From a virus, in the IMG/VR virus record IMGVR_UViG_3300017951_000080, positions 1 through 29,094 of that record: DNA of 29,094 nucleotides, one strand, 5' to 3'. Shown piece by piece: positions 332-22,378 of this stretch; the first letter of the stretch is position 1; each line of letters starts with the position of its first letter. The position numbers were made by a program, and so were the translations under genes. The notes beneath the pieces were generated by a model. That model had not been told where the DNA came from. It saw only the letters and a program-made list of their open reading frames with translations, and made no database searches.

Positions 332-1726
332 TTATTTTCCTCTTACTTTCGCGGCTAAGTCCTTATCGGCTTTACCCCATGTTCCTGATGATTTTGTTAC
401 GAAAGAATTAACTCTTGCTAATCCCCATTGTACTGCAGTTGTACCAGGTCTATGACCTGTTCTCCAAGCTGCAACACCTCTGTTAAAAACTTGTTTTAGT
501 ATACCTAATGGCATACCACTTTTGTCCGCCTTTTTCTTTAAAGCTGCATCGGTATCAGCTTCTTTTACCATGAAATCTTCAAAGGTTAAATGGTCAGCCA
601 TTTCACCGTACATTTGTTTAAATTTCTTGGTATGCTTAGATGGTTTCGTCTTTGCAGTTTTATCACCAGGGGCTGGTTTATATGCTGCTGGATTATCGTC
701 ATCCATCTTAGTTTGTTTATTAAATTGTGCTTGTCTTTTATCCTGTGTAGATTGACCTAAACCTTTATGGTACGCTTTATTTCTTTTTTGTGGTTTTTTA
801 TTCTCTTTTTTAGTTTTAGCGTGTGGATGTCCTACAATTCCTGAGTGAGGAGTATCTTTTAGAAATCTATTCAGAGCTTTTGCTGTCCCGAAGTCTCCTG
901 CTCCACCCTCTTCTGCGAGCTCTACGGAGTCCAGCCAATATCTTTTTCTTATGTCGTTGCTTTCTACCATTACGTAATTCGAACCGCATACGATGATTCT
1001 CCCTTTTTCGTTATTTTCTTTTATTCTAACAAGGTCGCCGACTTTAAAGAGACTTCCTTCGATATACTCTTCACGAGTTTGTGAGACTGGAGGTAATTCA
1101 ATATGTTGCCTAAAAGAACGTGACTCAGTGAGTCCCATTCCTTTTCTAACTGCGTTGAATAAGCCAGAAGTATCCTTAAAGCCGGACGGTAATCCTTTAG
1201 CAAAACCTGCTAGGTCGTTTTGTTGAGCGAATGCTCTCATTTTTGAGGCCGACATGCCCGATGCTCCTTCAGCATCTGGGTCACGTTCACCTGCGGAAAC
1301 TACGTTTATTTGCTCAAAATTATAGAATCCATGTCTTCCTTTTTCTCCATTGTACTTCTGTAATAGTGTATCAAATTCTATTACTCTATCGGAACCGACA
1401 ACCATTGTGACTTTTACAAAGCCTTGGTCATAGAGTAATGTGACTATATCGAATACTGTACGTATGTTCTTATCTCCCATAATAGCTCTTGCATGTTTAG
1501 GAAACATTTTACGTACGAACTTTATTTTATCTTTAAATTCTAATGGATTCTTTTTTGAGTCTTGTGACTTGGATGTATATATGCGATAAGCACCAGAACG
1601 TGCTTGTTTTTTCACTGCATCAAAGAGCTTTTCATGCCCTATGGTTGGAGGGTTATACCTCCCGAATGTAAATGTGACTTCTTTCGTTGATTCAGTTAAA
1701 AAGTCACTAAATGATTTTATTGACAT
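332..1726 (-). CDS. Cytidylyltransferase-like nucleotidyltransferase with KOW-like and C-terminal phage domains, CTS-like N-terminus
   Basis: A 464-aa, three-part protein. Residues about 17-170 form a HIGH-type nucleotidyltransferase domain: GRYNPPTIGH at 22-31 is the (T/G)xFxPxHxGH-type motif, VGSDRV lies near 110-115, and SASKMR at 159-164 stands where ISSTxxR is expected. Such domains join a nucleotide to a phosphorylated substrate; the substrate here is unknown. Residues about 227-255 (FKVGDLVRIKENNEKGR) resemble a KOW/SH3 barrel. After a Lys-rich low-complexity linker, residues about 390-464 form a compact domain (AWRTGHRPGTT, NSFVTKSSGTWGKAD) that recurs in marine T4-like phage proteins, probably DUF5824. 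The N-terminus MSIKSFSDFLTES resembles the T4 capsid-targeting peptide and ends in an LTE site for a gp21-type protease. Translation likely starts at ATG 1726 behind GAGG. Confidence 0.8.
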   Translation of the reverse strand: MSIKSFSDFLTESTKEVTFTFGRYNPPTIGHEKLFDAVKKQARSGAYRIYTSKSQDSKKNPLEFKDKIKFVRKMFPKHARAIMGDKNIRTVFDIVTLLYDQGFVKVTMVVGSDRVIEFDTLLQKYNGEKGRHGFYNFEQINVVSAGERDPDAEGASGMSASKMRAFAQQNDLAGFAKGLPSGFKDTSGLFNAVRKGMGLTESRSFRQHIELPPVSQTREEYIEGSLFKVGDLVRIKENNEKGRIIVCGSNYVMVESNDIRKRYWLDSVELAEEGGAGDFGTAKALNRFLKDTPHSGIVGHPHAKTKKENKKPQKRNKAYHKGLGQSTQDKRQAQFNKQTKMDDDNPAAYKPAPGDKTAKTKPSKHTKKFKQMYGEMADHLTFEDFMVKEADTDAALKKKADKSGMPLGILKQVFNRGVAAWRTGHRPGTTAVQWGLARVNSFVTKSSGTWGKADKDLAAKVRGK

Positions 1727-1744
1727 TTATATCCTCGGTTCCCA

Positions 1745-2986
1745 TTAGCCAGGATTGTCCCAGCCCTTTATAATATCTGGCGAAAAGTTATTGGTAGAAA
1801 ATTCTAATCTATCAACTAACTTTACCGCTCCACCTTCCGTACGGTCTATAGCTACAAAGCCCTCAGGGCCGGTGACTTTAAACCCGGATTTAGTTTTTAC
1901 AAACGTATCAATATTTGATAACGTCTTTAGTTTATTTATAATAATTAGTTTTGCATCTGTGACTAAAGTGTGTAAAATAAACACTTGTTCAAGGATTCCT
2001 AGGTTTTTCTCAGAAAAAAACTCTAATAGTTTATCCCTTTCACCTTCTTTTTTACCTCTACCTTTAGGTGTTTTTAACTTAGATATTTGTTTTGCATATC
2101 TTTCATTTACAAATTTAATTAATCCTTTTGCGTGTTTCTTAGGATCTGATATTCTTTCACCTCTTCTCACAGCTGTATTGTTATATATGTTTACTACTAA
2201 ATTTAATTCTTTATTGTTTTCTAATTCTTTTAATACAGGTGCTTCTACTTTTCTAAATACTGAACCTGCTTGTGATAGTAAACCATTTAATTCTTTTGTT
2301 GTACTTGAATCTAGTAAAGCTTTACCTGAAACATCAGGATATGTTGCATCAACCATCCAAACTGCAGATGTTTTCTTTAATCCTGTGGCTATTGATTTAC
2401 CAAAGGATGCTTTCATATTTTCAAATTTAGTACCTGTATACATTGTATGCCATACTATTCCTATCTTAGCTTTTGCTATTTTCTTTGCTAATGGCGTACC
2501 AAAAGGTATAGCATAAACGATAGTATTAGGATGGAAAGTAATATGTCTAACTCCATTTATTTTCTCCGCTTTTAAATCACTTGCTTCAAACATAAAGTCA
2601 CCTTGTATAACACCTCTTATACCAACATCCTTTAAATTATCAAAAGCGAGTTTTAGTTTTTTATTTAAATCACCTGATGTATCAGCATCGATATCAGCAT
2701 GATTCTTATAAACTTTTGGATTCTTTGCAAATATACCTTTTTTGGCTACAAAGAATTGACCATCTTCTGGGTCTATACCTGCGAATACGGCGGGGGCTCC
2801 GTCCCATTTGACAGAAATGTCCACAGGTGCTTTTGCATTTCCGCTCAACATATCCCTCAATGACCTTAGCGCTAGGATAGCTTGGCGAGCCCCCTTAACT
2901 CCACCGTCTAAGATTAAATCCTCAATATGCGTCATATGAGTATTCTTAGCTTCGGTTATGTAGTTAAGGTTTTTAAAACTTTTCAT
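1745..2986 (-). CDS. Ligase-like covalent nucleotidyltransferase (KWDG motif), CTS-like N-terminus
   Basis: A 413-aa protein that appears to carry the motif series of the DNA/RNA ligase nucleotidyltransferase fold: KWDG at 60-63 (motif I, lysine to be adenylylated), GDFMFE at 129-134 (motif III-like), EGFV at 375-378 (motif IV-like) and VKLV around K389 (motif V-like). The spacing to motifs IV/V is longer than in most ligases. Related unnamed proteins exist in cyanophages (I think DUF6267). It could join or nucleotidylate nucleic acid; activity is inferred. The ATG at 2986 is preferred over an in-frame TTG at 3016 because it begins the peptide MKSFKNLNYITEA, which resembles a capsid-targeting sequence with an ITE protease site. 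The gene overlaps the phosphatase gene by 14 bases, as expected in a late operon. Confidence 0.75.
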   Translation of the reverse strand: MKSFKNLNYITEAKNTHMTHIEDLILDGGVKGARQAILALRSLRDMLSGNAKAPVDISVKWDGAPAVFAGIDPEDGQFFVAKKGIFAKNPKVYKNHADIDADTSGDLNKKLKLAFDNLKDVGIRGVIQGDFMFEASDLKAEKINGVRHITFHPNTIVYAIPFGTPLAKKIAKAKIGIVWHTMYTGTKFENMKASFGKSIATGLKKTSAVWMVDATYPDVSGKALLDSSTTKELNGLLSQAGSVFRKVEAPVLKELENNKELNLVVNIYNNTAVRRGERISDPKKHAKGLIKFVNERYAKQISKLKTPKGRGKKEGERDKLLEFFSEKNLGILEQVFILHTLVTDAKLIIINKLKTLSNIDTFVKTKSGFKVTGPEGFVAIDRTEGGAVKLVDRLEFSTNNFSPDIIKGWDNPG

Positions 2987-3635
2987 AATCCATAAATTGC
3001 ATAATCTTATGAGCAAGTTCTATACCTGCATCATAATCTGATGGGTAATGTAAACCAGCTATTACTCTTCCATATCCACATATTTTAGCACCTCGGATTA
3101 ATTCATCTTTATGCTCAGGATACTTTTTGCTATAATGTAATGCAATTATCATTGGCTGCATAGAGTGTCCTGATGGATATGCTGGTGTTTTAGCTGTTCC
3201 TGTTTTAAATCTATTTAAAACTTTATTATATAAATCTGCTACTTGATATGGTCTAGGTCTGTTAAAATGATTTTTGTAATGTCGAATAATTGGTGAACAT
3301 TGTTTCTCAATATATTCTATTACATCCTCATCAAACTCTAAACCATTTTTTCTCATGTGTTCTTTAATATAGTATGATGCATCTTTATCACAGTTTTTGT
3401 AATCCTTTTTCTGTTGGTCAGTAGCTCCTTCAACAGCTGCGATTACAGCATCTATTTCTCTGTCTTCTCTTGGAGGTGATGGTAATATAATTCTTTGCCA
3501 ACCATCTTTCCAAATTTCCATATCATCATAATCAGGTTTTTTTAAATCATCCTGAGATTTAAAAACTAAATGTTTTAACGCGCTGTCTGGGCGGTCATCT
3601 AGTCTTGCTTCTCTTATGAATCCTTTAAAGTTCAT
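2973..3635 (-). CDS. PAP2-type / class A acid phosphatase-like protein, CTS-like N-terminus
   Basis: A 220-aa protein with all three signature motifs of the PAP2 / vanadium haloperoxidase / class A acid phosphatase superfamily: K121-x6-R128-P129 (KNHFNRPRP), PSGH at 154-157, and R190-x5-H196-x3-D200. H196 would be the phospho-accepting histidine. There are no obvious membrane spans, so this is a soluble phosphatase, unlike membrane lipid phosphatases; the substrate (nucleotide, phospholipid head group or polyphosphate) cannot be read from the sequence. It has no secretion signal; instead the N-terminus MNFKGFIREAR looks like a capsid-targeting peptide with an IRE site. Start and upstream stop share ATGA at 3632-3635, so translation is coupled to the nuclease-like gene. 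Confidence 0.85.
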   Translation of the reverse strand: MNFKGFIREARLDDRPDSALKHLVFKSQDDLKKPDYDDMEIWKDGWQRIILPSPPREDREIDAVIAAVEGATDQQKKDYKNCDKDASYYIKEHMRKNGLEFDEDVIEYIEKQCSPIIRHYKNHFNRPRPYQVADLYNKVLNRFKTGTAKTPAYPSGHSMQPMIIALHYSKKYPEHKDELIRGAKICGYGRVIAGLHYPSDYDAGIELAHKIMQFMDYEKF

Positions 3636-4759
3636 GAACGATGGTACTCTTTATCGATATCAAATAATTTTATAAATTGTTCTGTTGCAAACCACTTTCC
3701 TTCTTCACCTCTTGTACATATTACATAATTTCCAGGTTTTGTTGAACCTCTTATTGATAACCCAGCAGTTAATTTACCAGCATATTTAGATGCCATGTGT
3801 GAATTTTTTATTATTTGTTGTATCATATCTGGCTTTTTAGGTACATCACCACCATAGAACATATTGGCTGAACCTTCTCCATTTACACCAAATTTAATAT
3901 TACCTGTTAATACTTCCATAGCTTGAGCTGTACTTAAAGGCGGACCATAGTTGAATTTTTTTGCAATAAAGCCAGCAACATTTGGTGTTTTAGTTGTAGT
4001 ACCACCAATTTTACCTGTTTCATTTAGTTCTTTTAATATACCATTAATTAAATCTGATGCTCTTTTTTTACCATATATTTGTTCCCATCTTGCTGGTAGC
4101 ATCCAATTTTCAAAGTATGTAGCATTAATTGATTTTAAACTGTACTTTAACATATTGGTTTTAAATCCAGCTAAAGTTTTATCTAATACAACTGTCACAT
4201 CAGTTTTTGGATTACCACCACCAGACCAATCTTTTTCAGGTGCACGTAATTCTGTTATTTTATATTCTTTACCCTTATATTCAAATTGCCAATTATCTCC
4301 CGAACCTTTAATCCAAGCTTCAGTAAACTGTCCTTCATGGCCATGGCCTGCTTTAAATGGTTTGAATACATTTGGATTTATTTTATCGTTTAGGTCAACA
4401 GCCATAACCTCTACATTTTTACCACTAGGTTTGAGTATTTTATTTAGATGAATTAAGAAATCTTGACCAGTATATCTTCTATATTTTCTATCAACTAATT
4501 GGCATCTAATAGCATCTGACCGTCCAACTTTAGTAATATATTTAACTTCTCTATCCATGATTTTTAATTGAGTACCTTTTTTTAAGGTTTCATCCATAGG
4601 TGTACCATCCATTTGATAGAGTTCAGCTGGTTTTTCTAATTGAAATATTTCTGTTTTTCCAAGCTCAACATATTGTTTGAATGCTCCATGTGAACCACTA
4701 TAACTAGTGGTAGAACCTTGTAAGCTTGCTTCGTATATAAAACTTTTGAATGATTGCAT
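3632..4759 (-). CDS. Putative PD-(D/E)XK-like nuclease, CTS-like N-terminus
   Basis: A 375-aa protein without a family I can name. The N-terminus MQSFKSFIYEA is the closest match in the window to the T4 capsid-targeting peptide MKTYQEFIAEA, with an IYE cleavage site. Residues 140-210 resemble a restriction-endonuclease fold: GHGHEGQFTEAW (E147 as motif I), then NPKTDVTVVL (D187) and YSLKS (K209), an arrangement like D-xn-(S/E)xK in type II enzymes. The nuclease call is inferred from this pattern only. It is the first gene behind the TATAAATA late promoter at 4796-4803, with a GGGGA ribosome binding site about 10 bases before the ATG, and starts the coupled block of packaged-looking enzymes. 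Confidence 0.7.
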   Translation of the reverse strand: MQSFKSFIYEASLQGSTTSYSGSHGAFKQYVELGKTEIFQLEKPAELYQMDGTPMDETLKKGTQLKIMDREVKYITKVGRSDAIRCQLVDRKYRRYTGQDFLIHLNKILKPSGKNVEVMAVDLNDKINPNVFKPFKAGHGHEGQFTEAWIKGSGDNWQFEYKGKEYKITELRAPEKDWSGGGNPKTDVTVVLDKTLAGFKTNMLKYSLKSINATYFENWMLPARWEQIYGKKRASDLINGILKELNETGKIGGTTTKTPNVAGFIAKKFNYGPPLSTAQAMEVLTGNIKFGVNGEGSANMFYGGDVPKKPDMIQQIIKNSHMASKYAGKLTAGLSIRGSTKPGNYVICTRGEEGKWFATEQFIKLFDIDKEYHRS

Positions 4760-4795: not shown

Positions 4796-4803
4796 TATTT
4801 ATA
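4796..4803 (-). promoter_or_regulatory. T4-type late promoter L1 (TATAAATA)
   Basis: An exact TATAAATA, the T4 late -10 element used by gp55-directed RNA polymerase, lies 37 bases upstream of the ATG at 4759. No -35 is expected or seen. It would drive the block of head-associated genes from 4759 to the left edge. Confidence 0.75.
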
Positions 4804-6441: not shown

Positions 6442-6549
6442 TTAATTTCCTGCAATAAATGGAATAGTTAGCATTCCAATAAATATTAATAGAAACTCTA
6501 AATCTAATAGGTCGTGCCTAATTATAAAATCTTTAAATTTATTGTTCAT
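6442..6549 (-). CDS. Membrane microprotein (35 aa)
   Basis: A 35-aa frame, MNNKFKDFIIRHDLLDLEF followed by a hydrophobic span (LLIFIGMLTIPFIAG). Its ATG overlaps the stop of the 70-aa gene as TAATG, the junction type used repeatedly here, and it ends just before promoter P1. A single-pass membrane peptide is likely. No family recognised; too short for homology arguments. Confidence 0.5.
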   Translation of the reverse strand: MNNKFKDFIIRHDLLDLEFLLIFIGMLTIPFIAGN

Positions 6550-6761
6550 TATTGAGGGCCCTCAGGTAATTCTTCAAATCTTTTATTAACAAGTTTTTCA
6601 ATAACTTTGTCTCTATCAGTAAGAGCAACTCTTTCGTCGAATGAATCGCAAAGACCTGGTTTCATTCCACCTTCTAATTCTCTTAATATAGAACCTGTAC
6701 CCATTTCTGAGACCTCATCGAAAAGTCTTTCGAGGATTTGTTGGTTTATGTGATGTGACAT
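6549..6761 (-). CDS. Hypothetical acidic protein (70 aa)
   Basis: A 70-aa, Glu-rich, mostly helical protein (QQILERLFDEVSEMG, DRDKVIEKLVNKRFEEL). It is the first gene behind promoter P2, with AAGGAG before the ATG at 6761, and is coupled by TAATG to the membrane microprotein downstream. No family recognised. Confidence 0.65.
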   Translation of the reverse strand: MSHHINQQILERLFDEVSEMGTGSILRELEGGMKPGLCDSFDERVALTDRDKVIEKLVNKRFEELPEGPQ

Positions 6762-10730: not shown

Positions 10731-10759
10731 ATTATAACATAAAATCAGTTAATTGTAAA
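10731..10759 (-). promoter_or_regulatory. Sigma70-type phage promoter P3
   Basis: TTTACA (10759-10754), 17 bases, TATAAT (10736-10731), preceded by AAAAAAACAG. It drives bS21-uvsX-gp41. The -10 supplies the TAA stop of the methyltransferase-like gene, and the spacer encodes that protein's C-terminal residues. Confidence 0.85.
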
Positions 10760-11928
10760 CTGTTTTTTTCATATTCGTACGTTCTTTTTTTATTGTCAAT
10801 AAGCATGTAAGGTGTTTCAATCAAATCTACTTTGTTATCAAAATAAGCTAATAGATTCTCAACCATATCTTCAGCAGTTTTTACTGGTACGTTCTGACAT
10901 ATATGATTGATTTGATTGCTCACTAAGTTCATGTCTTCTGGTAAATGCATGATTCTCATTGATTCTCTAACTGTTAAGTATCTATCTTCGTATGGATGGC
11001 ATGTTTGAACTGGTAAATGACCTACAAAAGCTCCAATATAATTCTTAGCCCATGTGGTAGTTCTTCTCATAACATTACCACCTGACTTTATTTTCTTATT
11101 CATTCTATCTATGATATTATAATGTCTTTCATGTCCTTGTTCTTTTAACCAAGGTAAAAGGTTATCATATGAATCGTTATCTTCAATATAATCAAAACAA
11201 TTATTTGAATGTTCTAAAGTATCGTAAAATTCTCTATGGTTTATACCACCATGTAGCTCTTCAAGTATGTATCTATAGAAGGGCAAATCAGATGGAGTAT
11301 GTTGATTTGGTAGATAATTCATTGGATCTGCCTCAGATCGAGGCCCAGAGGTGATTACTGATTCAATTCTTTCGTTAGGCCAACGGTTTACATAGGGTAA
11401 TAATGGTGCCTGATGCCCTTTAAAAAAGAAATAAAATGTTCTATCTCTGATTTGACTATACCCTTGTACTAATGATTTGGTCTTCAGAAGTACAAAGGTA
11501 TAACCATACTGCTCCCCTATTTTTCGTAGTTTCTCTACTACAGGTACACCGGTCTTTTGTGCCAACCTTGGTGCATTCTCTCCCCAAAAAACTCTTGGTT
11601 CTATTTTACCTAAAACATAATGTGCTGTTTCGTACATCCAATTATTTGCTGGTTTATCAGCAGCTGAATGAGTTGATAGTGTGGATAAACCTGCGCATGG
11701 ACAAACTGTATTGACCATATCTACTTTCTTTGGTTTATGGTTTTTGTTCTCATCTAAATGTATATAATCTCCTTGCCAACCTTTTTGTCTAATGTAGTTT
11801 ATATAATGAGAATCGTTTGGTTCAAAATCTGAATATGATAAAACTTCCTCTGGCATTTGACCATTGAGTTTATTCATAACTGCTATGCTTTCACCACCTA
11901 TTAATGGTACAATACTACTGTATTTCAT
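10732..11928 (-). CDS. DNA cytosine-5 methyltransferase-like protein
   Basis: A 398-aa protein with the C5-methyltransferase motif order: an N-terminal [12 protein letters not shown] in place of motif [10 protein letters not shown] with Cys78 as the expected nucleophile (motif IV), WGENAP at 115-120 (ENV-type motif VI), SQIRDRTF at 158-165 (QxRxR motif VIII) and [17 protein letters not shown] (motif IX/X-like). Motif I departs from DLFxGxGG, so AdoMet use is not certain. In a phage that makes hydroxymethyl-dCMP, C5 of cytosine is already occupied, so its role is puzzling. It could act on the host, on residual cytosine or by a changed reaction. It ends in SLQLTDFML, a tail encoded by promoter P3. 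It overlaps the NTase-kinase gene by 14 bases. Confidence 0.8.
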
Positions 11929-13408
11929 TCATCACCTTTGTTAACATTCTTGTTTGTCTTTCCACGTCATCGTAATGTAGTGGTATACAAGTTGCAAGTA
12001 ATAGTAATCCACCCATAAGTATTTGGTCCTTTGGTAGATTATATTCATCTAACTTTCTTACAAATAAATCTTTTACGTATTCATTGTGTGGAACGTCAGC
12101 AACAATAGCGTTATAACCATAGTAGCAATCATGAGCTAACTTAGCCCAGTCATATATGTTATCACCCATTGTTCCATGCCAACTACCATACTTTCCTCTT
12201 GGGTCTAATAATTTAAACTGGTCTGTTTGTTGATTATATAGAATGTTTGCTAAATGTAAATCACCATGCATTCCATTTATTGGTGAAGTGTGTAGATAAA
12301 CTTGTTCAGCCATTTCATGTAATTGAGCTACTTTCCAAGCTTCCATTACATTATAGAACTCATGATTTAATCTTTCTTCGGTTTTATCAACCCACATCTT
12401 TTTTGAATTCTCACTAAAGCTATCAATCAATCCTTCATCTTCAACTGGATTATTAAAATATTTTAACTTAATTCTAAATATTCTATCCATAATATAATCC
12501 CAATGTGACTCAGGCATATTTTCATATAACATCAAATCACTAAGTAATGTACCACTTTCATATGACATAATTAATTGAGTTGGATGTTTTAATATTCTTG
12601 GTACGAACATTGATTGCTCATCGTTTAAACATTTATACCAATACTTTTCGTTTTGTAATGTTTCCCTTGAATGTTTATCATGATAATCTGGTAATTTTGT
12701 AATGGTTCCAAGCTCTGGATTAAATTCCAAATTATTAAATGCTCTTGCTTTTCTATTCAATAGCGATGCACAGGTTTTATAGTATGTTGGCAGATCACCT
12801 ATGTCGTACCATTCCTTAGTAATATATTGGCTAAAGTTTCCATAAAGTTCTAGTGCACCTGAGATATCGTAGGCCCTACTTTCATTGAAAGCCTGTTTAG
12901 CTCTCATACCTTCGCTAAATGAATATAGGCCAACTAAAGCATTTGCATTTGGTATTGGCTTTTCTGGTTTATTATAATATTTAGTACCATCCCACATACA
13001 CCAAGCTGATTGATTATCAACTTCTTTTGTAAGTAAAAAGTTTGTACCCAATGGCATATCTTTTTCTAATATAATCGCATCACCTAACCATACAACAACT
13101 GGTTTTAATGGATTGGTCAATGCGTTTATTCCAATCTTAATTGCATCTCTTGGTCCATCAAAAGATGGTTGATTAGCAAACCTTACCTTGGGATGTTTTA
13201 CAGCACAATACTCTCGGATATCCGTATACTTTCCATCAACCACGACTATTTCATCAACGCTGCCATTGACTGCCTCTATTATATAGTCTAGGCAAGGTTT
13301 ACCATTTACACGTACCATAACCTTCGACGTGCCAGAAGATAGAGGTCTTAGTCTTGTTGCTGCTCCTGCAGCAGGGATAACTAAATTGAATCCATTTTGT
13401 TTGTCCAT
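11915..13408 (-). CDS. Sugar-nucleotidyltransferase / APH-type kinase fusion
   Basis: Two enzymes in one 497-aa chain. Residues about 8-230 form a nucleotidyltransferase of the RmlA/LicC type: PAAGAATRLRPLSSGTSKVMV, with VVVWLGDAII as the metal-binding region, which joins NTP and a sugar- or alcohol-phosphate into an activated donor. Residues about 255-497 form a choline/aminoglycoside kinase fold: HGDLHLAN at 381-388 (catalytic loop), LLDPRG with D402 (metal) and YDWAKLAHD. Together they could phosphorylate a small polyol or sugar and activate it with a nucleotide. The neighbours (HAD phosphatase, two glycosyltransferases) suggest that the donor decorates phage DNA, though a surface-glycan role is the alternative. 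The true substrate is unknown. It overlaps the HAD gene by 28 bases. Confidence 0.82.
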   Translation of the reverse strand: MDKQNGFNLVIPAAGAATRLRPLSSGTSKVMVRVNGKPCLDYIIEAVNGSVDEIVVVDGKYTDIREYCAVKHPKVRFANQPSFDGPRDAIKIGINALTNPLKPVVVWLGDAIILEKDMPLGTNFLLTKEVDNQSAWCMWDGTKYYNKPEKPIPNANALVGLYSFSEGMRAKQAFNESRAYDISGALELYGNFSQYITKEWYDIGDLPTYYKTCASLLNRKARAFNNLEFNPELGTITKLPDYHDKHSRETLQNEKYWYKCLNDEQSMFVPRILKHPTQLIMSYESGTLLSDLMLYENMPESHWDYIMDRIFRIKLKYFNNPVEDEGLIDSFSENSKKMWVDKTEERLNHEFYNVMEAWKVAQLHEMAEQVYLHTSPINGMHGDLHLANILYNQQTDQFKLLDPRGKYGSWHGTMGDNIYDWAKLAHDCYYGYNAIVADVPHNEYVKDLFVRKLDEYNLPKDQILMGGLLLLATCIPLHYDDVERQTRMLTKVMNEIQ

Positions 13409-13755
13409 TTAACAAATTCCTCCAAGTTCATTGCTTTATCATCTACGTAATATGTTCCTGAGTAAGGTTTACCCCATACTAATTCATCGTATGGTACATC
13501 ATATCTTTCCAACCAATCGGTTGTTATCTTACCTACATCTTCTATGATTTTCTCTATATCGCCATTATGTGTTAACATTCTTCTGGCAGTTAATAAAATA
13601 ATATGGAACCCTAAATTCTTAAGTACTCTCATACCTTTGATTACCTTATTATTAGGTAGTGCGTTTCCATATTTTTGTTGTGCATCTTGATAGTTGTGAT
13701 TTGTAAAACAAATCGTATCATCTATATCGATTACTATTGTTTTTTTCTTATCCAA
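13381..13755 (-). CDS. HAD-superfamily phosphatase, capsule-biosynthesis type
   Basis: A 124-aa HAD hydrolase. The nucleophile motif is DIDDT at 10-14 (D10, D12), motif II is in LLTAR, and motif III/IV is GKPYSG...YYVDDKAM. Short HAD proteins with this DIDDTICFTNHNY start occur in bacterial capsule gene clusters beside nucleotidyltransferases, where they remove phosphate from an intermediate. It starts at TTG 13755, because no ATG is near and GGAGG lies seven bases before it. That ribosome binding site is inside the last codons of the AGT-like gene, whose end it overlaps. Probably works with the fused nucleotidyltransferase-kinase next door. Confidence 0.82.
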   Translation of the reverse strand: MDKKKTIVIDIDDTICFTNHNYQDAQQKYGNALPNNKVIKGMRVLKNLGFHIILLTARRMLTHNGDIEKIIEDVGKITTDWLERYDVPYDELVWGKPYSGTYYVDDKAMNLEEFVKWTNKMDSI

Positions 13756-15103
13756 AGAAATCCTCCAAACTAGTTGTATTTAAATCTTTCATCTTAGTAT
13801 GTACAATTCTTTTCTTCTTTTCGAAATAACTTAATTGTTGTTCTATAACTTCTTTTGCTCCAAATGCTGGGATGTGATTATTAAAAATATCCATGAAAGT
13901 ATCTATAGAAGTTATTCCAAAGCATTTTTCAAGTAATTGAGTCACTGACATTTTGTCTGTTTGCTTTCCAACTGTCTCTATATGTTTTAACATAGGTGGT
14001 ATTACATTAGATGCATCAGCTTCCTGATAGAGGAACTCAATACCGTCCGCCAAATAGTTGGCATATAACATTTCATTATTTGCTAACTCATGAATTCTAT
14101 CTCTGGTTTCTTCTAGATTATTTCTATCTGACCAAATGGCAATATCATTCTTTATAAATGCTTTACCCTTTTCATCGATATTATTTTCACCATAATCTTT
14201 ATCAAATACTGGAACTGTACCTACAGCAATTATTTCCATTTGAGCATATTCAAACCTATCACCATAGTTGTGTCTTTCCTTTGGAAGGTTATAACCACTA
14301 TAACCAAACAATGAGTTTGATATTAGGTTCATACCATCTTCATATTCATAAGGACCAAAGCTTTCACATATATCACTATCATAATTATAACCATTAAACT
14401 TATCTGTCCAGTTAGTGATATCAATAATATCAAACTTAGCACCAATAGACCTTTCAATACCATGAATAGAATAATGGAAATCTTTATCTAAGTTAAACAT
14501 TTCAACCATTCTTTTTGGGTCCTTCATAGTTGTCCAACGACTTGCGTATATACAACTTCTTCTTTTATCTTTAAATGGAACCCAATACTTCTCGTAATCA
14601 GAAACAGTAAATGGTAATTTCATACGAGCAATCCTTTCGCCAAGTTTCTTATCAGTTAGAATACTTGATATATCTTTTGCGTAAGATGTTTCTGTTGAGA
14701 AGTTAAATATAATATCACATGCATTTGCAATAGGTATGTGCATTGGTATTCTATCAAAATTCATTCTTTTAATCTCATGCATCATACCAACAAGAATTGG
14801 TTTCTCTATTTTAAGAACTAAATCTTCAAAGAAACTTTTAACTGTTGTTTGTTTGTGTAATGGACTTGGATAAGAATTAAGCATAACAATATCATAATTG
14901 TCATTTAACTTTTTAGCTACCTCAGGTATTTCTTCAGCTTTGAATGAGATGGAATCTTTTATATGTCCACCTGAGCGAGTAAATCCACGTTCTTGTAAAT
15001 CATATACGTCCACATCATCAGGCATATATCTTTGGAATTCATATCCAAACTTTTCTACTCCGCAGCCATCCAGGCCTTTTCCAAATACTATTGCAATTTT
15101 CAT
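13748..15103 (-). CDS. T4 AGT-like DNA glucosyltransferase (GT-B fold)
   Basis: A 451-aa protein that resembles T4 alpha-glucosyltransferase along its length: GKGLDGCGVEKF at the start (T4 has ARGLEGCGVTKF), RGFTRSGGHIKDSISF (T4: KSFTRTSSHDHKSF), RWTTMKDPKRMVEMF, IHGIERSIGAKF and GTVPVFDKDYGENN (T4: GTIPVFWKSTGENL). AGT transfers glucose from UDP-glucose to 5-hydroxymethylcytosine in DNA. About 50 extra residues lie at the C-terminus, ending in SLEDFFG, which is identical to the end of this phage's DNA polymerase; T4 AGT has been reported to bind the gp45 clamp. The ATG at 15103 has no ribosome binding site and lies only about five bases after the expected start of P4 transcripts. The sugar used here is not known. 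Confidence 0.88.
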   Translation of the reverse strand: MKIAIVFGKGLDGCGVEKFGYEFQRYMPDDVDVYDLQERGFTRSGGHIKDSISFKAEEIPEVAKKLNDNYDIVMLNSYPSPLHKQTTVKSFFEDLVLKIEKPILVGMMHEIKRMNFDRIPMHIPIANACDIIFNFSTETSYAKDISSILTDKKLGERIARMKLPFTVSDYEKYWVPFKDKRRSCIYASRWTTMKDPKRMVEMFNLDKDFHYSIHGIERSIGAKFDIIDITNWTDKFNGYNYDSDICESFGPYEYEDGMNLISNSLFGYSGYNLPKERHNYGDRFEYAQMEIIAVGTVPVFDKDYGENNIDEKGKAFIKNDIAIWSDRNNLEETRDRIHELANNEMLYANYLADGIEFLYQEADASNVIPPMLKHIETVGKQTDKMSVTQLLEKCFGITSIDTFMDIFNNHIPAFGAKEVIEQQLSYFEKKKRIVHTKMKDLNTTSLEDFFG

Positions 15104-15114
15104 ATATTAGTTAT

Positions 15115-15143
15115 ATTATATCATAAAATCAGTGATTTGTACA
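15115..15143 (-). promoter_or_regulatory. Sigma70-type phage promoter P4
   Basis: TGTACA (15143-15138), 17 bases, TATAAT (15120-15115), preceded by AAAAAAACAG. It drives the AGT-like gene and those downstream. The -10 supplies the TAA stop of the GT-A gene. Confidence 0.82.
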
Positions 15144-15955
15144 CTGTTTTTTTCTAAATCTTTCACGTGCTTAGGTACACCTTTTGGTATAACCTTTAGG
15201 TTGATTTTTCTATTGTGTGTTTTGTCTTTAAGATTGACAAGTGTAATGTGTCTTGGATATAGATTATGTAAGTCATAAGCAGCTTGTTGCATCACGTCTG
15301 CCTTACGTGCGGACGCGTTACCGCCTTCTTTTTCTTTTCCAATAATTAGTTGCCATTTAGTAATAAAGAAATTATTATATCCTTTTTCAATAGCTCCACA
15401 AAATGCTGCTATATCTTCGTAGTATCTTACTTTAGTATAACCCAAATCATCAGCTGTAAGTTTTTCTAAATTAATAAAAGAACTAAAAGCACCCCAACGA
15501 TTTAATCCTATGGGAAATATATCTTTACCTTTTGGAAATGTTGCAGTTGCGATTACACCAAATGGCATATCTTCAAGTAATCCAATTGAATAATTTATTA
15601 GTTCATAGAACGAATCTTCTGATAGTTCTTTCTCTTTAATTACATAATCCTTTTCTTCTGTAATATGACAAGGTACTATCTTTATATCATCATCCATCAT
15701 CCAAATCTTTTCACCAGCAAAATGTTCACATATCGCATGTCTTTTTTCTGGTATGCCTGAATCTTTAGGTACGTTAAGTGGAACTACTTCTACGCCTGGG
15801 TAATCAAGTGGAATACTTTTATAACGTTCCATTTCAGATACTTCTCTTCTGATACAAACGTAAACTCTTTTGTAAAAACTTTCAGGAATCCATCCATTTT
15901 CCAATGCATCTATTTTACCATCAGGTCTTTTATATGTAGGTATAACTATTTTCAT
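15116..15955 (-). CDS. GT-A fold glycosyltransferase
   Basis: A 279-aa glycosyltransferase with a GT-A (GT2-like) N-terminus, MKIVIPTYKRPDGK, and a metal-binding DDD at 88-90 in IWMMDDDIKI. KRHAICEHFAGEK before it fits the nucleotide-sugar binding helix. It lies directly before the AGT-like gene and in the hydroxymethylcytosine gene group, so it may add a first or second sugar to the modified base; T2 and T6 also use a second transferase. The start is ATG 15955, sharing ATGA with the stop of the membrane protein gene; an in-frame TTG six bases upstream is less likely. The C-terminus SVQITDFMI is encoded by promoter P4 and resembles the end of the methyltransferase-like protein. Confidence 0.8.
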   Translation of the reverse strand: MKIVIPTYKRPDGKIDALENGWIPESFYKRVYVCIRREVSEMERYKSIPLDYPGVEVVPLNVPKDSGIPEKRHAICEHFAGEKIWMMDDDIKIVPCHITEEKDYVIKEKELSEDSFYELINYSIGLLEDMPFGVIATATFPKGKDIFPIGLNRWGAFSSFINLEKLTADDLGYTKVRYYEDIAAFCGAIEKGYNNFFITKWQLIIGKEKEGGNASARKADVMQQAAYDLHNLYPRHITLVNLKDKTHNRKINLKVIPKGVPKHVKDLEKNSVQITDFMI

Positions 15956-16251
15956 AACCAAAGGAACTCAATTAAATTTCTAATTAACAATGCTAATCCT
16001 ATTCCGTTTAACATAATAAGTGCTCTGTCTCTCCAAATAACTGATACGATTAACCATAAGAATATTCCAATAATTGATAACACTAAATCGTAAAATTGAA
16101 AATCAGGTATTCCTCTCATTGACATAGCAACAAGTACGAATGCTGATGCTATCCATTTTACATACCAATCAACTGTATATTTTGGAGTTGCACTTTTATA
16201 TATACGTTTAGAATTTTCTATTTCTTCTGGACTAAACTTCTGTGAAGTCAT
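15952..16251 (-). CDS. Three-span membrane protein (99 aa)
   Basis: After a polar N-terminus (SPEEIENSKRIYKSATPKYTVDWYVKW), three hydrophobic segments follow: about 34-46 (IASAFVLVAMSM), 54-70 (YDLVLSIIGIFLWLIVSVIW) and 78-97 (LIMLNGIGLALLIRNLIEFLWL). A similar gene is frequent in T4-like marine phages but has no known role. AGGAG precedes the ATG; its start lies inside the deaminase gene's end and its stop is coupled to the GT-A gene by ATGA. Confidence 0.75.
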   Translation of the reverse strand: MTSQKFSPEEIENSKRIYKSATPKYTVDWYVKWIASAFVLVAMSMRGIPDFQFYDLVLSIIGIFLWLIVSVIWRDRALIMLNGIGLALLIRNLIEFLWL

Positions 16252-16672
16252 AATCTACTCCTGCCTCTTTAAATATTTCATTTGTTTTTCCTATTGCTTC
16301 GACCCATCTGTCTGGAGTTCCTTCTGATACAGCAACCACTCTTGATACTCCAGCTTGTATAATACCTAAAGCACAATCACCACAAACTGGTAAACCATAT
16401 ATGTAAAGTGTCGAATCTCTTAATGATATTCCATTCTCAGCTGCGTTATATATGCAATTCATTTCAGCATGTACCACATATTGATATTTTGTTTCTCTAT
16501 CGTTATATCTTTCTTCAGTATCTTCAATACCTTTAGGAAATCCATTATAACCTGTAGCTAGTATTTTTCTATCTCGTACAGCGATAGCACCTATTTTTCT
16601 ACTTGGGTCTTTACTCCATGTAGATATTTCATATGCAATACCAAGAAATCTTTTATCCCACTTATTTAACAA
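16232..16672 (-). CDS. cd: dCMP deaminase
   Basis: A zinc enzyme that turns dCMP into dUMP, feeding thymidylate synthesis; in a hydroxymethylcytosine phage it also lowers the plain dCMP pool. Zinc ligands are H68 with E70 as the proton shuttle (VHAEMN) and C97/C100 in PVCGDC, with the standard start NKWDKRFLGIAYEISTWSKDPSRKIGA. I place the start at TTG 16672, 10 bases after GAGAGG, because it gives the usual family N-terminus (LNKWDKRF). ATG 16690 is the alternative; both lie inside the 3' end of the dCMP hydroxymethylase gene. The product is 146 aa. Confidence 0.9.
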   Translation of the reverse strand: MLNKWDKRFLGIAYEISTWSKDPSRKIGAIAVRDRKILATGYNGFPKGIEDTEERYNDRETKYQYVVHAEMNCIYNAAENGISLRDSTLYIYGLPVCGDCALGIIQAGVSRVVAVSEGTPDRWVEAIGKTNEIFKEAGVDYDFTEV

Positions 16673-17339
16673 GATCGAAGTGCCTCTCATAAACATGTAA
16701 GTTTTGAACTTGCCAATAGATATTACCACCAGATTTTAAAGGATGTCCACCAAAATATAAAGCTTTTTCAAGTTGTTCCAATACATACTTTTGCCAAGCA
16801 TAATCATTCTTATAACCAAACACTACATCATTACTTCTCATTTGAACTACACAATGCAACTGTTCATCACGAATATAATATGTCACAGCGTTAGTACATA
16901 TAAAATCATTCTTATCATTTTCTTTATACTCATGCCAGATACTTGGCCTTTGATAAATCATTGATGCTCTACGTGAGTCTGGATTATCAGTTAGTTCTCT
17001 TAAAACTTTATCGTATTGTTTGAAATACTTCTTACCATAGATTAGATGACCATAATTAGAATTGATTTCACCATGTACATTAGCAGAATACTGCCAAGCT
17101 TGAGGTGGTTCTCTATCTCCTTCGGGATAGATATCAGTAATGTTTGTTGACCTAGATTTATACCAATTGATTTCAGCTTTAATATAATCTTCATTGGGTT
17201 TGCCGAATATTGATTCTTCATCAGCAACAAATGATGCACCAATCATTTCAATTGTTTTTGCACCAGTCTTATCGGTAGTAAAGTTTTCTTTTTCTAACTC
17301 ACTAATAAAATGTTTTCTTATATCAGCTACTTTCATCAT
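16662..17339 (-). CDS. 42: dCMP hydroxymethylase (gp42)
   Basis: Makes 5-hydroxymethyl-dCMP from dCMP and methylene-tetrahydrofolate, the first step toward hydroxymethylcytosine DNA. It matches T4 gp42 closely: DKTGAKTIEMIGASFVADE, EINSNYG, NPDSRRASMIY and MRSNDVVFGYKNDYAWQKYV. The catalytic Cys148 (DFICTN) and Asp179 (KNDYA), which separates gp42 from thymidylate synthase, fall at the same residue numbers as in T4. The product is 225 aa (T4: 246), lacking only the T4 C-terminal tail after LHVYERHFDLVK. The first codons are ATGATG; either could serve. It overlaps the Nmad1 gene upstream by 17 bases. Confidence 0.95.
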   Translation of the reverse strand: MMKVADIRKHFISELEKENFTTDKTGAKTIEMIGASFVADEESIFGKPNEDYIKAEINWYKSRSTNITDIYPEGDREPPQAWQYSANVHGEINSNYGHLIYGKKYFKQYDKVLRELTDNPDSRRASMIYQRPSIWHEYKENDKNDFICTNAVTYYIRDEQLHCVVQMRSNDVVFGYKNDYAWQKYVLEQLEKALYFGGHPLKSGGNIYWQVQNLHVYERHFDLVK

Positions 17340-19549: not shown

Positions 19550-19863
19550 TAGCTATTTAATTTATTTACAGTATCAATCTCAGTTTGTGGATTGTTCCAT
19601 TGCCTGTTCAATCTACTTGGATGTGGTATCTTACAATGTTCAACACCTAATCTGTTTAGATATTCAGAGGCTACATTTCCTAAAGCCACTATGTGAGAGT
19701 ATTTATACGACTGTTCTACAGTAAATATAACCTTATCTTCTAAGTCATATATATTAGTCCAATCATAATCTTCTTTAATCCAACCACTTACACGATTCCA
19801 CGTGACTGATTTAGATTTATCTACTAAACCTGGTTTCTGTCCTACAACTAATATCCTAGCCAA
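19522..19863 (-). CDS. Uracil-DNA-glycosylase superfamily-like protein (113 aa)
   Basis: A short protein with the two ends of the UDG fold: ILVVGQKPG at 4-12 (like the GQDPY loop) and PHPSRLNRQW near 80-89 (like the HPSPLS loop), with SHIVALGNVASEYL between. The usual catalytic Asp is replaced (GQKPG), so it may be a non-catalytic or altered member, for example a DNA-binding relative or one acting on another base. It starts at TTG 19863, behind GGAGG that lies inside the last codons of the polymerase gene. The last residues (SYLHLHRNVL) are encoded by promoter P6. Confidence 0.6.
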   Translation of the reverse strand: MARILVVGQKPGLVDKSKSVTWNRVSGWIKEDYDWTNIYDLEDKVIFTVEQSYKYSHIVALGNVASEYLNRLGVEHCKIPHPSRLNRQWNNPQTEIDTVNKLNSYLHLHRNVL

Positions 19864-22378
19864 AGAAATCCTCCAAGCTTGCTACTTCCTCATGCTTCCA
19901 ACCAACTGCTTGCAACACAGGTTCGATTGGGTCAAGGAATGTCTTTTTAAATTGTGTATCGTAATCAATGTACTTATGTAATCCAAATTCATCGGGTAAG
20001 TAATCAGAGAAAGCAATAACATTCTCATGAATTGGATTTGGAATGCGTAAGTATACGAACTTGATTTTATCGCCATTTTGAATGTAAGGATATTTCTTTT
20101 GTAGCGATAAGTTATTAACTTGATGATTGAATAGTAATGACCCGCGTACGTGCATAGGCGTACCTTTTTTATAGATACTATTTGCATCCTTGAACTCACG
20201 AACCTTTGTGACTCCACGTGGGAATGCAATTTCATCGGGTGGTAATGTTTTGAAATGATTTTTAAATTGTTCGATTGCCTGTTGAGTTTCCTTTTCATCT
20301 TTTTGGATGATTACCTTGAACAAAGCTTTCAATGCTTCTCGGCATGGTTCAGGTGTACTAGATTTGATTGCTTCAATTCCCATGATTTTTAACTTAGGCG
20401 TTTTATATCTTACACCCTCGTTGTCATGTACGTTTAAGATGTAGCGTTTTTTGGCTGTCCATATTCCTCTATCAGCTATAGCTTCCCTTTTCATAACCAT
20501 GCGATTTGATACACCACCAAGAATATCAAATAAGTTATCGTAGGATTTAGCCAGTTCAGGCTCAAGCATTTCATTAGCAACTTTATCTAAGAAGTCAATA
20601 GGATTCTCAGGTTTAAACTGATCGATTACATCTCCTAGGCGTACATACAAACTATCTGTATCGATGGCAACGACATAGTCTTTTCTTGTATTCGTTTTGA
20701 GCACTCGATTAAGGTAGGAGTTAAGTGCATATTCGGCCCATCGTATTGTAAGCTGTCCGGTAAGGGTAATTGCTTCAGCGATTCGTTGGTCGAAGAAACG
20801 AAAATATCTGTTGCCAAGAGCACCATAGAGAGAATTAAGCAGGATTTTAATAGCAACCTGTCTGTTCTCGGCAATTGCAATATCCCTTTCGATTTGGTAT
20901 AGTTTTTGTTTATCATCTTTATCCACCTTTTCCTTTTCATTTTGAGCATCAATCATTTGCTTTTTGATTCCTACCCTTTCATTATACATCTCATCAATAA
21001 TCATTGGAAGTATTCCAACTTTCTTAGTTGTGAAGTGTTGGCCATTTGCAGCTACACACTCACCTTCAAACTTTTCCATTTGTACATTTGGATTTGCTAG
21101 CATATCTTCAATATCAACTTTACTTACCCTTCCATTCAATATTGTCTCAGGTGACATATTGTATTGCATAATAATAGAAGGATATAGAGAGTTTAAATCA
21201 AAACTAACCATGTGATTATGTATTCCAACTTGAGGTTCTTTTACAAAACCGCCAGGATAGAACGTTTTAGTTTTATCCTCAGCAAATGGTATTATAATAT
21301 TATGTTCATATAGTTTCCTAAAGATAATCGTATCCCAGATTGCTGTGGTGCCAAACGTGTCATTGTAGTTCACTCCACCTTTGTATGCCATAGTTAAACA
21401 AAGAGTAATTAAACCAAGTTTATCTTCGATCCTGTCGACCAACTCAACGTCCTTTATATTATAGTCAATAAATTTTTGGAAGTTATGTTGATATAAGGTA
21501 TGCAAAGAGCCATACTCTTCGTAGGATAGTTTCTTCTCTCCAAGTACTACATGAGCAATGTGGTCCAACTTATAAGATTCCTGAGGACCATAAGAATATC
21601 CAAACTTTTTAAATAGGTCAAGGTAATCTAAATTAGAAATACCTTTGAGTTCGTAGGCAGTTTGAGTTCTACCCATCGTAGTTATTTCTCTACGTTCAAT
21701 CATACTCCAAGGTGATAGCCTTTTTACGTATGGCTCACCAAGAAGTTTATGTATTCTGTTTACGAGGTAAGGTATATCAAAGAACCTAGTATTCCAACCG
21801 GTCACCACATCTGGTGAGTGAGAACCTGAGGACCAATGTGTTATGAAGTTGACCAAGAGGTCAGCCTCGGATTCGTAGCTTTTATAAACTACCCGGTTGG
21901 TTTTCATTAATGATTTGCTTACGTCATAGGTGCCGAGACCCCACACATAATATGTATTGTCGATATTATTTTTAATCGTAATCGCAGTGATTTGATTATC
22001 AGCTTTGTCTGGCTCGGGGAAGCCATCATCCGACGCAACCTCGATATCAATCGTAGTGACATTTACTTTGTTACGATCGAATTCGATTTGACCTGGAAAA
22101 TGGTCATTGATGAAAGCCGAAATATATCGAGTGTTTCCAAAGATATGGAGCCCGGCGGTGTGTTTGTTCGTTTGAACCCATTCATTTGCAGATCGCATAG
22201 AGTCAAAACTCATCTTACCAACTGGAGTACCATCCAAGGCTTTCCAATTTGTAGGACGATTCGTACTCACGAATAGTGAGGGTTCGTATTTAATTTTTTC
22301 TGAGATTCGTTTATTGTGGTCATACCCACGGAGGAGTATCATATTACCATAACGACTTACATTAGTATAAAACTTCAT
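19856..22378 (-). CDS. 43: DNA polymerase gp43 (family B)
   Basis: The replicative polymerase with 3'-5' proofreading. The exonuclease motif is DIE at 111-113 (TTIDIEVASDDGFPE), and the polymerase motifs follow in order: FDLNSLYPSIIMQYN (motif A), KILLNSLYGALGNRYFRF (motif B) and AIDTDSLYVRLG (motif C). At 840 aa it is somewhat shorter than T4 gp43 (898). The C-terminus SLEDFFG stands where T4-type polymerases carry their clamp-binding peptide, and is shared with the AGT-like enzyme. MKFYTNVSRYGN is the usual start of this family; the ATG at 22378 has no ribosome binding site and lies about three bases after the expected P7 start, so the message may be nearly leaderless. In T4, RegA represses gene 43 translation. 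Confidence 0.96.
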   Translation of the reverse strand: MKFYTNVSRYGNMILLRGYDHNKRISEKIKYEPSLFVSTNRPTNWKALDGTPVGKMSFDSMRSANEWVQTNKHTAGLHIFGNTRYISAFINDHFPGQIEFDRNKVNVTTIDIEVASDDGFPEPDKADNQITAITIKNNIDNTYYVWGLGTYDVSKSLMKTNRVVYKSYESEADLLVNFITHWSSGSHSPDVVTGWNTRFFDIPYLVNRIHKLLGEPYVKRLSPWSMIERREITTMGRTQTAYELKGISNLDYLDLFKKFGYSYGPQESYKLDHIAHVVLGEKKLSYEEYGSLHTLYQHNFQKFIDYNIKDVELVDRIEDKLGLITLCLTMAYKGGVNYNDTFGTTAIWDTIIFRKLYEHNIIIPFAEDKTKTFYPGGFVKEPQVGIHNHMVSFDLNSLYPSIIMQYNMSPETILNGRVSKVDIEDMLANPNVQMEKFEGECVAANGQHFTTKKVGILPMIIDEMYNERVGIKKQMIDAQNEKEKVDKDDKQKLYQIERDIAIAENRQVAIKILLNSLYGALGNRYFRFFDQRIAEAITLTGQLTIRWAEYALNSYLNRVLKTNTRKDYVVAIDTDSLYVRLGDVIDQFKPENPIDFLDKVANEMLEPELAKSYDNLFDILGGVSNRMVMKREAIADRGIWTAKKRYILNVHDNEGVRYKTPKLKIMGIEAIKSSTPEPCREALKALFKVIIQKDEKETQQAIEQFKNHFKTLPPDEIAFPRGVTKVREFKDANSIYKKGTPMHVRGSLLFNHQVNNLSLQKKYPYIQNGDKIKFVYLRIPNPIHENVIAFSDYLPDEFGLHKYIDYDTQFKKTFLDPIEPVLQAVGWKHEEVASLEDFFG

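Follow-up and report, generated by a model that had tools for sequence, protein, structure and literature searches.

Unrelated enzymes of a marine T4-like phage share N-termini that resemble T4 capsid-targeting sequences and are candidate head-delivered cargo

Why should four adjacent phage genes, whose products are otherwise unrelated, begin with the same short peptide? The question is raised by IMG/VR record IMGVR_UViG_3300017951_000080, positions 1 to 29,094, a 29 kb viral fragment (hereafter, the window, meaning the whole stretch analysed). Four contiguous minus-strand open reading frames (ORFs) at 332-1726, 1745-2986, 2973-3635 and 3632-4759 encode, respectively, a cytidylyltransferase-like protein, a DUF6267 protein, a PAP2 phosphatase-like protein and a nuclease-like protein (gene 4). 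An earlier examination of the letters alone (the sequence-only reading) had likened their N-termini to the capsid-targeting sequence (CTS) of phage T4, and both the ORFs and the N-termini were confirmed on the minus strand. We assign a probability of about 0.82 to the shared N-termini being T4-type CTSs on cargo enzymes that are cut by the prohead protease gp21 and delivered with the DNA.

In T4, the internal proteins IPI, IPII and IPIII and the protein Alt carry an N-terminal peptide of ~10 residues, with aromatic residues at positions 4 and 7, Ile or Leu at 8 and Glu at 10. The first 10 residues of IPIII are enough for packaging, and genetics placed targeting mainly at residues 4 and 7, with residues 8 and 10 serving processing (PMC9026906). 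In the window, CTS-like tags were found on gene 4 (MQSFKSFIYE/A, 4730..4759; the slash marks the predicted cut), the PAP2 gene (MNFKGFIRE/A, 3609..3635), the DUF6267 protein (MKSFKNLNYITE/A, 2951..2986) and the cytidylyltransferase (MSIKSFSDFLTE/S, 1691..1726), all on the minus strand. The tag pattern matched all four genes directly except that for DUF6267, which has a two-residue insertion (FKNLNYITE); T4 IPI likewise has a stretched version (MKTFKEF...TITE/A). Alignments of each family, built without using the motif, revealed F/L at position 4, F/Y at 7, I at 8 and E at 10 in gene 4 homologues (n = 15), and F/L, Y/F/H, I/L and E (0.99) at the key positions of DUF6267 homologues (n = 103). 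Cytidylyltransferase homologues (n = 77), with positions shifted by two, had F (1.00), Y/F (0.98) and E (0.94), and the same key positions were conserved in aligned PAP2 homologues (n = 24). Across the four unrelated families, positions 4, 7, 8 and 10 were conserved while 2, 3, 5, 6 and 9 varied, as did 11 except in gene 4. The four-gene set thus carries both the targeting (4/7) and the processing (8/10) residues of T4-type cargo, and this match of conserved to T4-functional positions is the strongest sequence argument for a putative CTS.

Retention of the tag in relatives, on which the sequence-only reading had staked its proposal, was observed in 15 of 15 full-length gene 4 homologues and 20 of 24 PAP2 homologues, and the key positions were kept in nearly all DUF6267 and cytidylyltransferase homologues. 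In some PAP2 relatives the linker behind the tag is ~12 residues shorter and the tag is nonetheless retained, e.g., MRRLKQFITED and MKRFRKHIKED. The tag was disordered in both AlphaFold models obtained, with pLDDT <50 for residues 1-36 of gene 4 and 1-17 of the DUF6267 protein.

Behind these N-termini, the mature parts of all four proteins are unrelated to one another. Gene 4 (3632..4759, minus strand), at 375 amino acids (aa), combines an SH3-like domain with a PD-(D/E)XK-type nuclease-like domain, as judged from PADLOC, alignment and AlphaFold. It is probably a PD-(D/E)XK nuclease, based on a PADLOC REase_II profile match (E = 2e-8, residues 158-232), invariant GNPKTD...SLK and the SH3-like N-terminal part of the model; GHGHE, NATxxENWM, D187 and K209 are also invariant. 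No Pfam family matched gene 4, Foldseek gave no significant match (the weak ones were to SH3/SH3b domains and included HinP1I and MspI), and tblastn found neither gene 4 nor PAP2 in the phage collection, nor gene 4 in plasmids. The 220-aa PAP2/class A acid phosphatase-like protein (2973..3635, minus strand; Pfam PF01569, E = 2e-9) has the class A acid phosphatases PhoC/PhoN as its nearest solved relatives (Protein Data Bank, E to 1e-11), and the motifs by which that class is recognised, KxxxxxxRP, PSGH and SRxxxxxHxxxD, are intact and invariant. The 413-aa DUF6267 protein (1745..2986, minus strand; PF19782, E = 1e-104) conserves KWDG, EGFV and VKLV, which recall the motifs of ligase-type nucleotidyltransferases; Foldseek found nothing at E < 0.001, with ligases and capping enzymes recurring among the low matches. 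For gene 4 and DUF6267, which had no significant Foldseek match, the assignment as enzymes is drawn from motifs and a single PADLOC profile. The 464-aa protein at 332..1726 (minus strand) comprises a cytidylyltransferase-like (NMNAT-like) domain (PHROG 3041/395, E to 1e-102) and a C-terminal DUF5824 (PF19141, E = 3e-17). PHROG 455 covers both the DUF6267 and the cytidylyltransferase regions, indicating that some phages encode them as a fusion.

To place the tag in a wider context, 124 related loci were scrutinized, namely the window and those that searches with gene 4, PAP2 and DUF6267 retrieved from IMG/VR; 1677 genes were called as simple ORF picks, and families were blastp clusters, some of which may be distantly related to one another. 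The core pattern [FYL]xx[FYLH][ILMVF]xE was found, within residues 2-16, at 302 of 1677 first starts (18%) vs. 39 of 6218 internal methionines (0.63%), a ~29-fold difference; as loci were picked via tagged families, 18% is not a genome-wide rate and the within-loci contrast is what counts. At least one tagged member occurred in 51 families and at least two in about 22, while 24 families of at least five members (349 proteins) had no tag; at the control rate, chance alone would give about 10 single matches. The four genes proposed as a set are tagged, but the set extends to tens of families. Pfam gave no clear family for most of the other tagged proteins, and the proposed nucleic-acid and nucleotide toolkit suits some members, for which such a function is plausible, but not the several families without known function. 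A further match in the window, MSHHINQQILERLFDEVSE (6549-6761), is probably due to chance, since only 1 of 15 family members was tagged.

The pattern was also selective within individual genomes. In a T4 control (50 kb, 77 genes) it picked only ipII and ipIII. In a near relative of 128 kb (G001), matches were confined to gene 4, DUF6267, the cytidylyltransferase, a small basic protein, a HAD-like phosphatase and one dubious 56-aa ORF, and none of the head and replication genes that homology identified there carried the pattern. This relative encodes gp21, 70% identical to gp21 of C48C1, and the homology-inferred cleavage site of its gp23, NYISE/A, is nearly the same as its DUF6267 tag, NYLSE/A. 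The sequences bear out the gp21-type cleavage motif, (I/L)xE, to which the sequence-only reading had pointed. The tag is missing from cytidylyltransferases of the jumbo phages RaK2 and MIJ3 and of phage XG4, so it seems to have been added within the marine T4-like group. Outside the cassette it was found on a RimK-like protein of phage Melnitz and on an S-adenosylmethionine (SAM) hydrolase and a Cas9-like protein of phage S-CREM2. The Melnitz protein (L006, 82-1131), a RimK-like ATP-grasp protein with the tag MTQKFSQFITE/E, is a candidate delivered protein-modifying enzyme.

The four-gene set has genes for a gp41-type helicase and UvsX as its upstream neighbours. Gene 4 and the PAP2 gene share an ATGA overlap (3632-3635), the PAP2 and DUF6267 genes overlap by 14 bases (2973-2986), and 18 bases separate the DUF6267 gene from the cytidylyltransferase gene, whose start is at 1726; such overlapping or near-touching genes likely form one operon. 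A late-promoter element, TATAAATA (4796-4803, minus strand), is located 44 bases upstream of the first ATG, that of gene 4. By count alone TATAAATA was not enriched in the window (7 observed vs. 5.4 expected), and its count was dropped as evidence by itself. Among relatives, however, 43 of 94 distinct first tagged genes had it no more than 120 bases ahead of them, compared with 2 of 158 later tagged genes and 75 of 1021 untagged same-strand genes, bearing out the late-promoter association suggested earlier. This distribution fits a predicted operon under late control placed among replication genes, and the four-gene set would accordingly share the late expression of T4-type cargo.

Virion protein data come from relatives of the window phage. 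For the distant relative S-CREM2, virion mass spectrometry has been published (PMC10665884), and its tagged proteins include the SAM hydrolase (MKDFDSFLEE), ORF13 (MKDLHSFLTE), an APH/ChoK-like kinase (MKRFDAFLTE), ORF136 (MQTFSMFFSE) and a cytidylyltransferase (MKNFSSFLTE). The T4-position pattern, applied to the first 16 residues, matched 5 of 28 non-structural virion proteins, 0 of 24 structural proteins and 1 of 167 undetected proteins (Fisher p = 2e-4). A narrower F-anchored form, picked after the data were seen, matched 5, 0 and 0 in the same classes (p = 4e-5). Restricted to proteins of at least 70 residues, the contrast gave p = 0.003, and with regex windows of up to 30 residues it was weaker through chance matches. 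In S-SM1, the sole convincing tagged protein in the genome is the cytidylyltransferase T4-GC190 (MKKFSAFLNE/A), which was detected in virions; cytidylyltransferase homologues were thus found in virions of both phages (PMC10665884, PMC3037559). The S-CREM2 authors weighed encapsidation and named no signal (PMC10665884). In the same phage, ORF12 (L012, 7704-10313) is a virion-detected Cas9-like nuclease with the tag LRFASFMAE/A after 17 residues, and a Cas9-family nuclease may travel in the phage head.

Explanations other than cargo delivery were weighed against these data. The tag could bring proteins into the prohead core for head assembly or DNA packaging, as core or scaffold components or in capsid maturation, and not for delivery to the host. 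T4 IPIII influences head assembly (PMC9026906), and in one relative (G002) a tagged 331-aa protein is encoded between the portal and protease genes, the position of a core protein. However, the cargo families turn over fast among close relatives and many cargo proteins are enzymes with intact catalytic motifs, both unlike core head genes, and we consider a role in head assembly only to be unlikely. The G002 protein (57737-58732; L155, 17737-18732) begins MKNFKDLVSE/V, and its portal-protease interval is where T4 has the core proteins gp67 and gp68.

That the common start is a feature of expression or recombination (conserved leader codons, or swapping of cassettes where genes begin) and plays no part in targeting would be in keeping with the clustering of tagged genes behind a late promoter, yet it is improbable given that the same tag is found on genes far from the cassette, in Melnitz and S-CREM2, and is associated with virion proteins in the latter. 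Moreover, amino acids are conserved while codon identity is not: where tag residues were identical between unrelated neighbours, codons agreed at 538 of 870 positions vs. 468 expected from usage, slightly above chance. Such near-chance agreement indicates that the tag is maintained at the protein level, and recent DNA-level copying was rejected on this test. A chance resemblance, or remote homology among the four proteins, might be entertained for a motif this short on four genes of one operon, but is scarcely credible in view of the ~29-fold enrichment over internal methionines and the conservation of the same four positions on unrelated domains.

Several observations weigh against the cargo interpretation itself. 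The window contains no head genes and the proteomics derives from relatives only. About 22 of the 28 S-CREM2 non-structural virion proteins have no tag, though many of these may be tail proteins, and the authors warn of possible contaminants in CsCl purification (PMC10665884). PAP2 homologues at loci L051, L053 and L055-L058 lack the full tag. After the tag Glu, the place of A is often taken by D, E, Q or K, which makes cleavage of every tagged member uncertain. The PAP2 frames at the loci named above show a short M(F/Y)I(E/K)E start and nothing more; it may be a tag that has degenerated, or the enzyme may have a different lifestyle.

The tag is a direct observation, as are the conservation of its functional positions, its spread over unrelated families, its association with a late promoter and its connection to virion proteins of a relative; the tagged proteins are most likely cargo that enters the prohead core and is processed by the gp21 protease. 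For the four window proteins we infer packaging, cleavage, ejection and function as follows. They would be made late in infection from one operon, and aromatic residues 4 and 7 would dock them onto the prohead core, around which the capsid shell would close. The gp21-type prohead protease would then cleave after the Glu of (I/L)xE, leaving the mature enzymes in the head with the DNA. When the phage next infects a cell, ejection of the genome would carry them along, and they would act ahead of phage gene expression, the most likely job of the phosphatase, ligase-like protein, NMNAT-like enzyme and nuclease being protection of the incoming DNA and host takeover.

The claim that no such set had been described was too strong. 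The T4 internal proteins and Alt constitute one, with unrelated mature parts encoded by late genes, and, as in T4, a gp21-type protease is encoded by relatives of the window phage. A T4 review already proposes the CTS as a general loading route for T4-like phages (PMC9026906; also PMC3012670). Unlike in T4, the cargo here is mostly larger (200-700 aa), is encoded in an operon that follows the gp41 helicase gene and belongs to Kyanoviridae-like marine phages, and its cleavage and ejection are predicted from sequence. Cytidylyltransferases, too, had already been reported in cyanophage virions. The S-SM1 T4-GC190 protein and the S-CREM2 SAM hydrolase, kinase, cytidylyltransferase and Cas9-like protein carry the same N-terminal tag, the cytidylyltransferases being homologous to that of the window; those publications listed the proteins without a targeting signal and left contamination possible, and the parts consulted do not report DUF6267, PAP2 or gene 4 among virion proteins. 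By description, the phage P1 Dar proteins and the ejection proteins of the giant phages SPN3US and phiKZ are similar, being packaged in the head and either believed or demonstrated to function in the following host cell. In the giant phages a prohead protease removes N-terminal signals, but all of these involve different signals and phage families. A search of the openly accessible literature turned up no description of signals of this kind in cyanophages, pelagiphages or methylophages. While CTS use for diverse internal proteins is known from T4, the large-enzyme cargo, the dedicated exchangeable operon and the tens of families in marine T4-like phages are new.

Elsewhere in the window, 10732-17339 encodes a C5-cytosine methylase, an NTP-transferase fusion, DNA alpha-glucosyltransferase (AGT)-like and TET-associated glycosyltransferases (TAGT), a dCMP deaminase and a thymidylate synthase-like enzyme, which suggests a DNA hypermodification set producing 5-methylcytosine-derived glycosylated bases. 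The AGT-like protein (13748-15103) ends in TTSLEDFFG and the phage DNA polymerase (19856-22378) in VASLEDFFG, with similar ends on further ORFs in relatives; the SLEDFFG end resembles a peptide for binding the sliding clamp, here placed on an enzyme that modifies DNA. The methylase (10732-11928) and TAGT (15116-15961, ending in NSVQITDFMI) share another C-terminal peptide, resembling a clamp-binding motif.

T4 shows that proteins can enter a cell together with phage DNA. It is reasonably likely that in marine T4-like phages, which rank among the ocean's most abundant viruses, one portable, cleavable N-terminal address loads tens of unrelated enzymes into the head, that an exchangeable cargo operon lies behind the helicase gene, and that capsid-delivered effectors can be predicted from sequence. 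Together with published proteomics, the tag yields a candidate list comprising a SAM hydrolase, a nuclease, a phosphatase, ligase-like and NMNAT-like enzymes, a kinase and tens of unknowns, and this list makes the first minutes of infection by marine phages directly testable.

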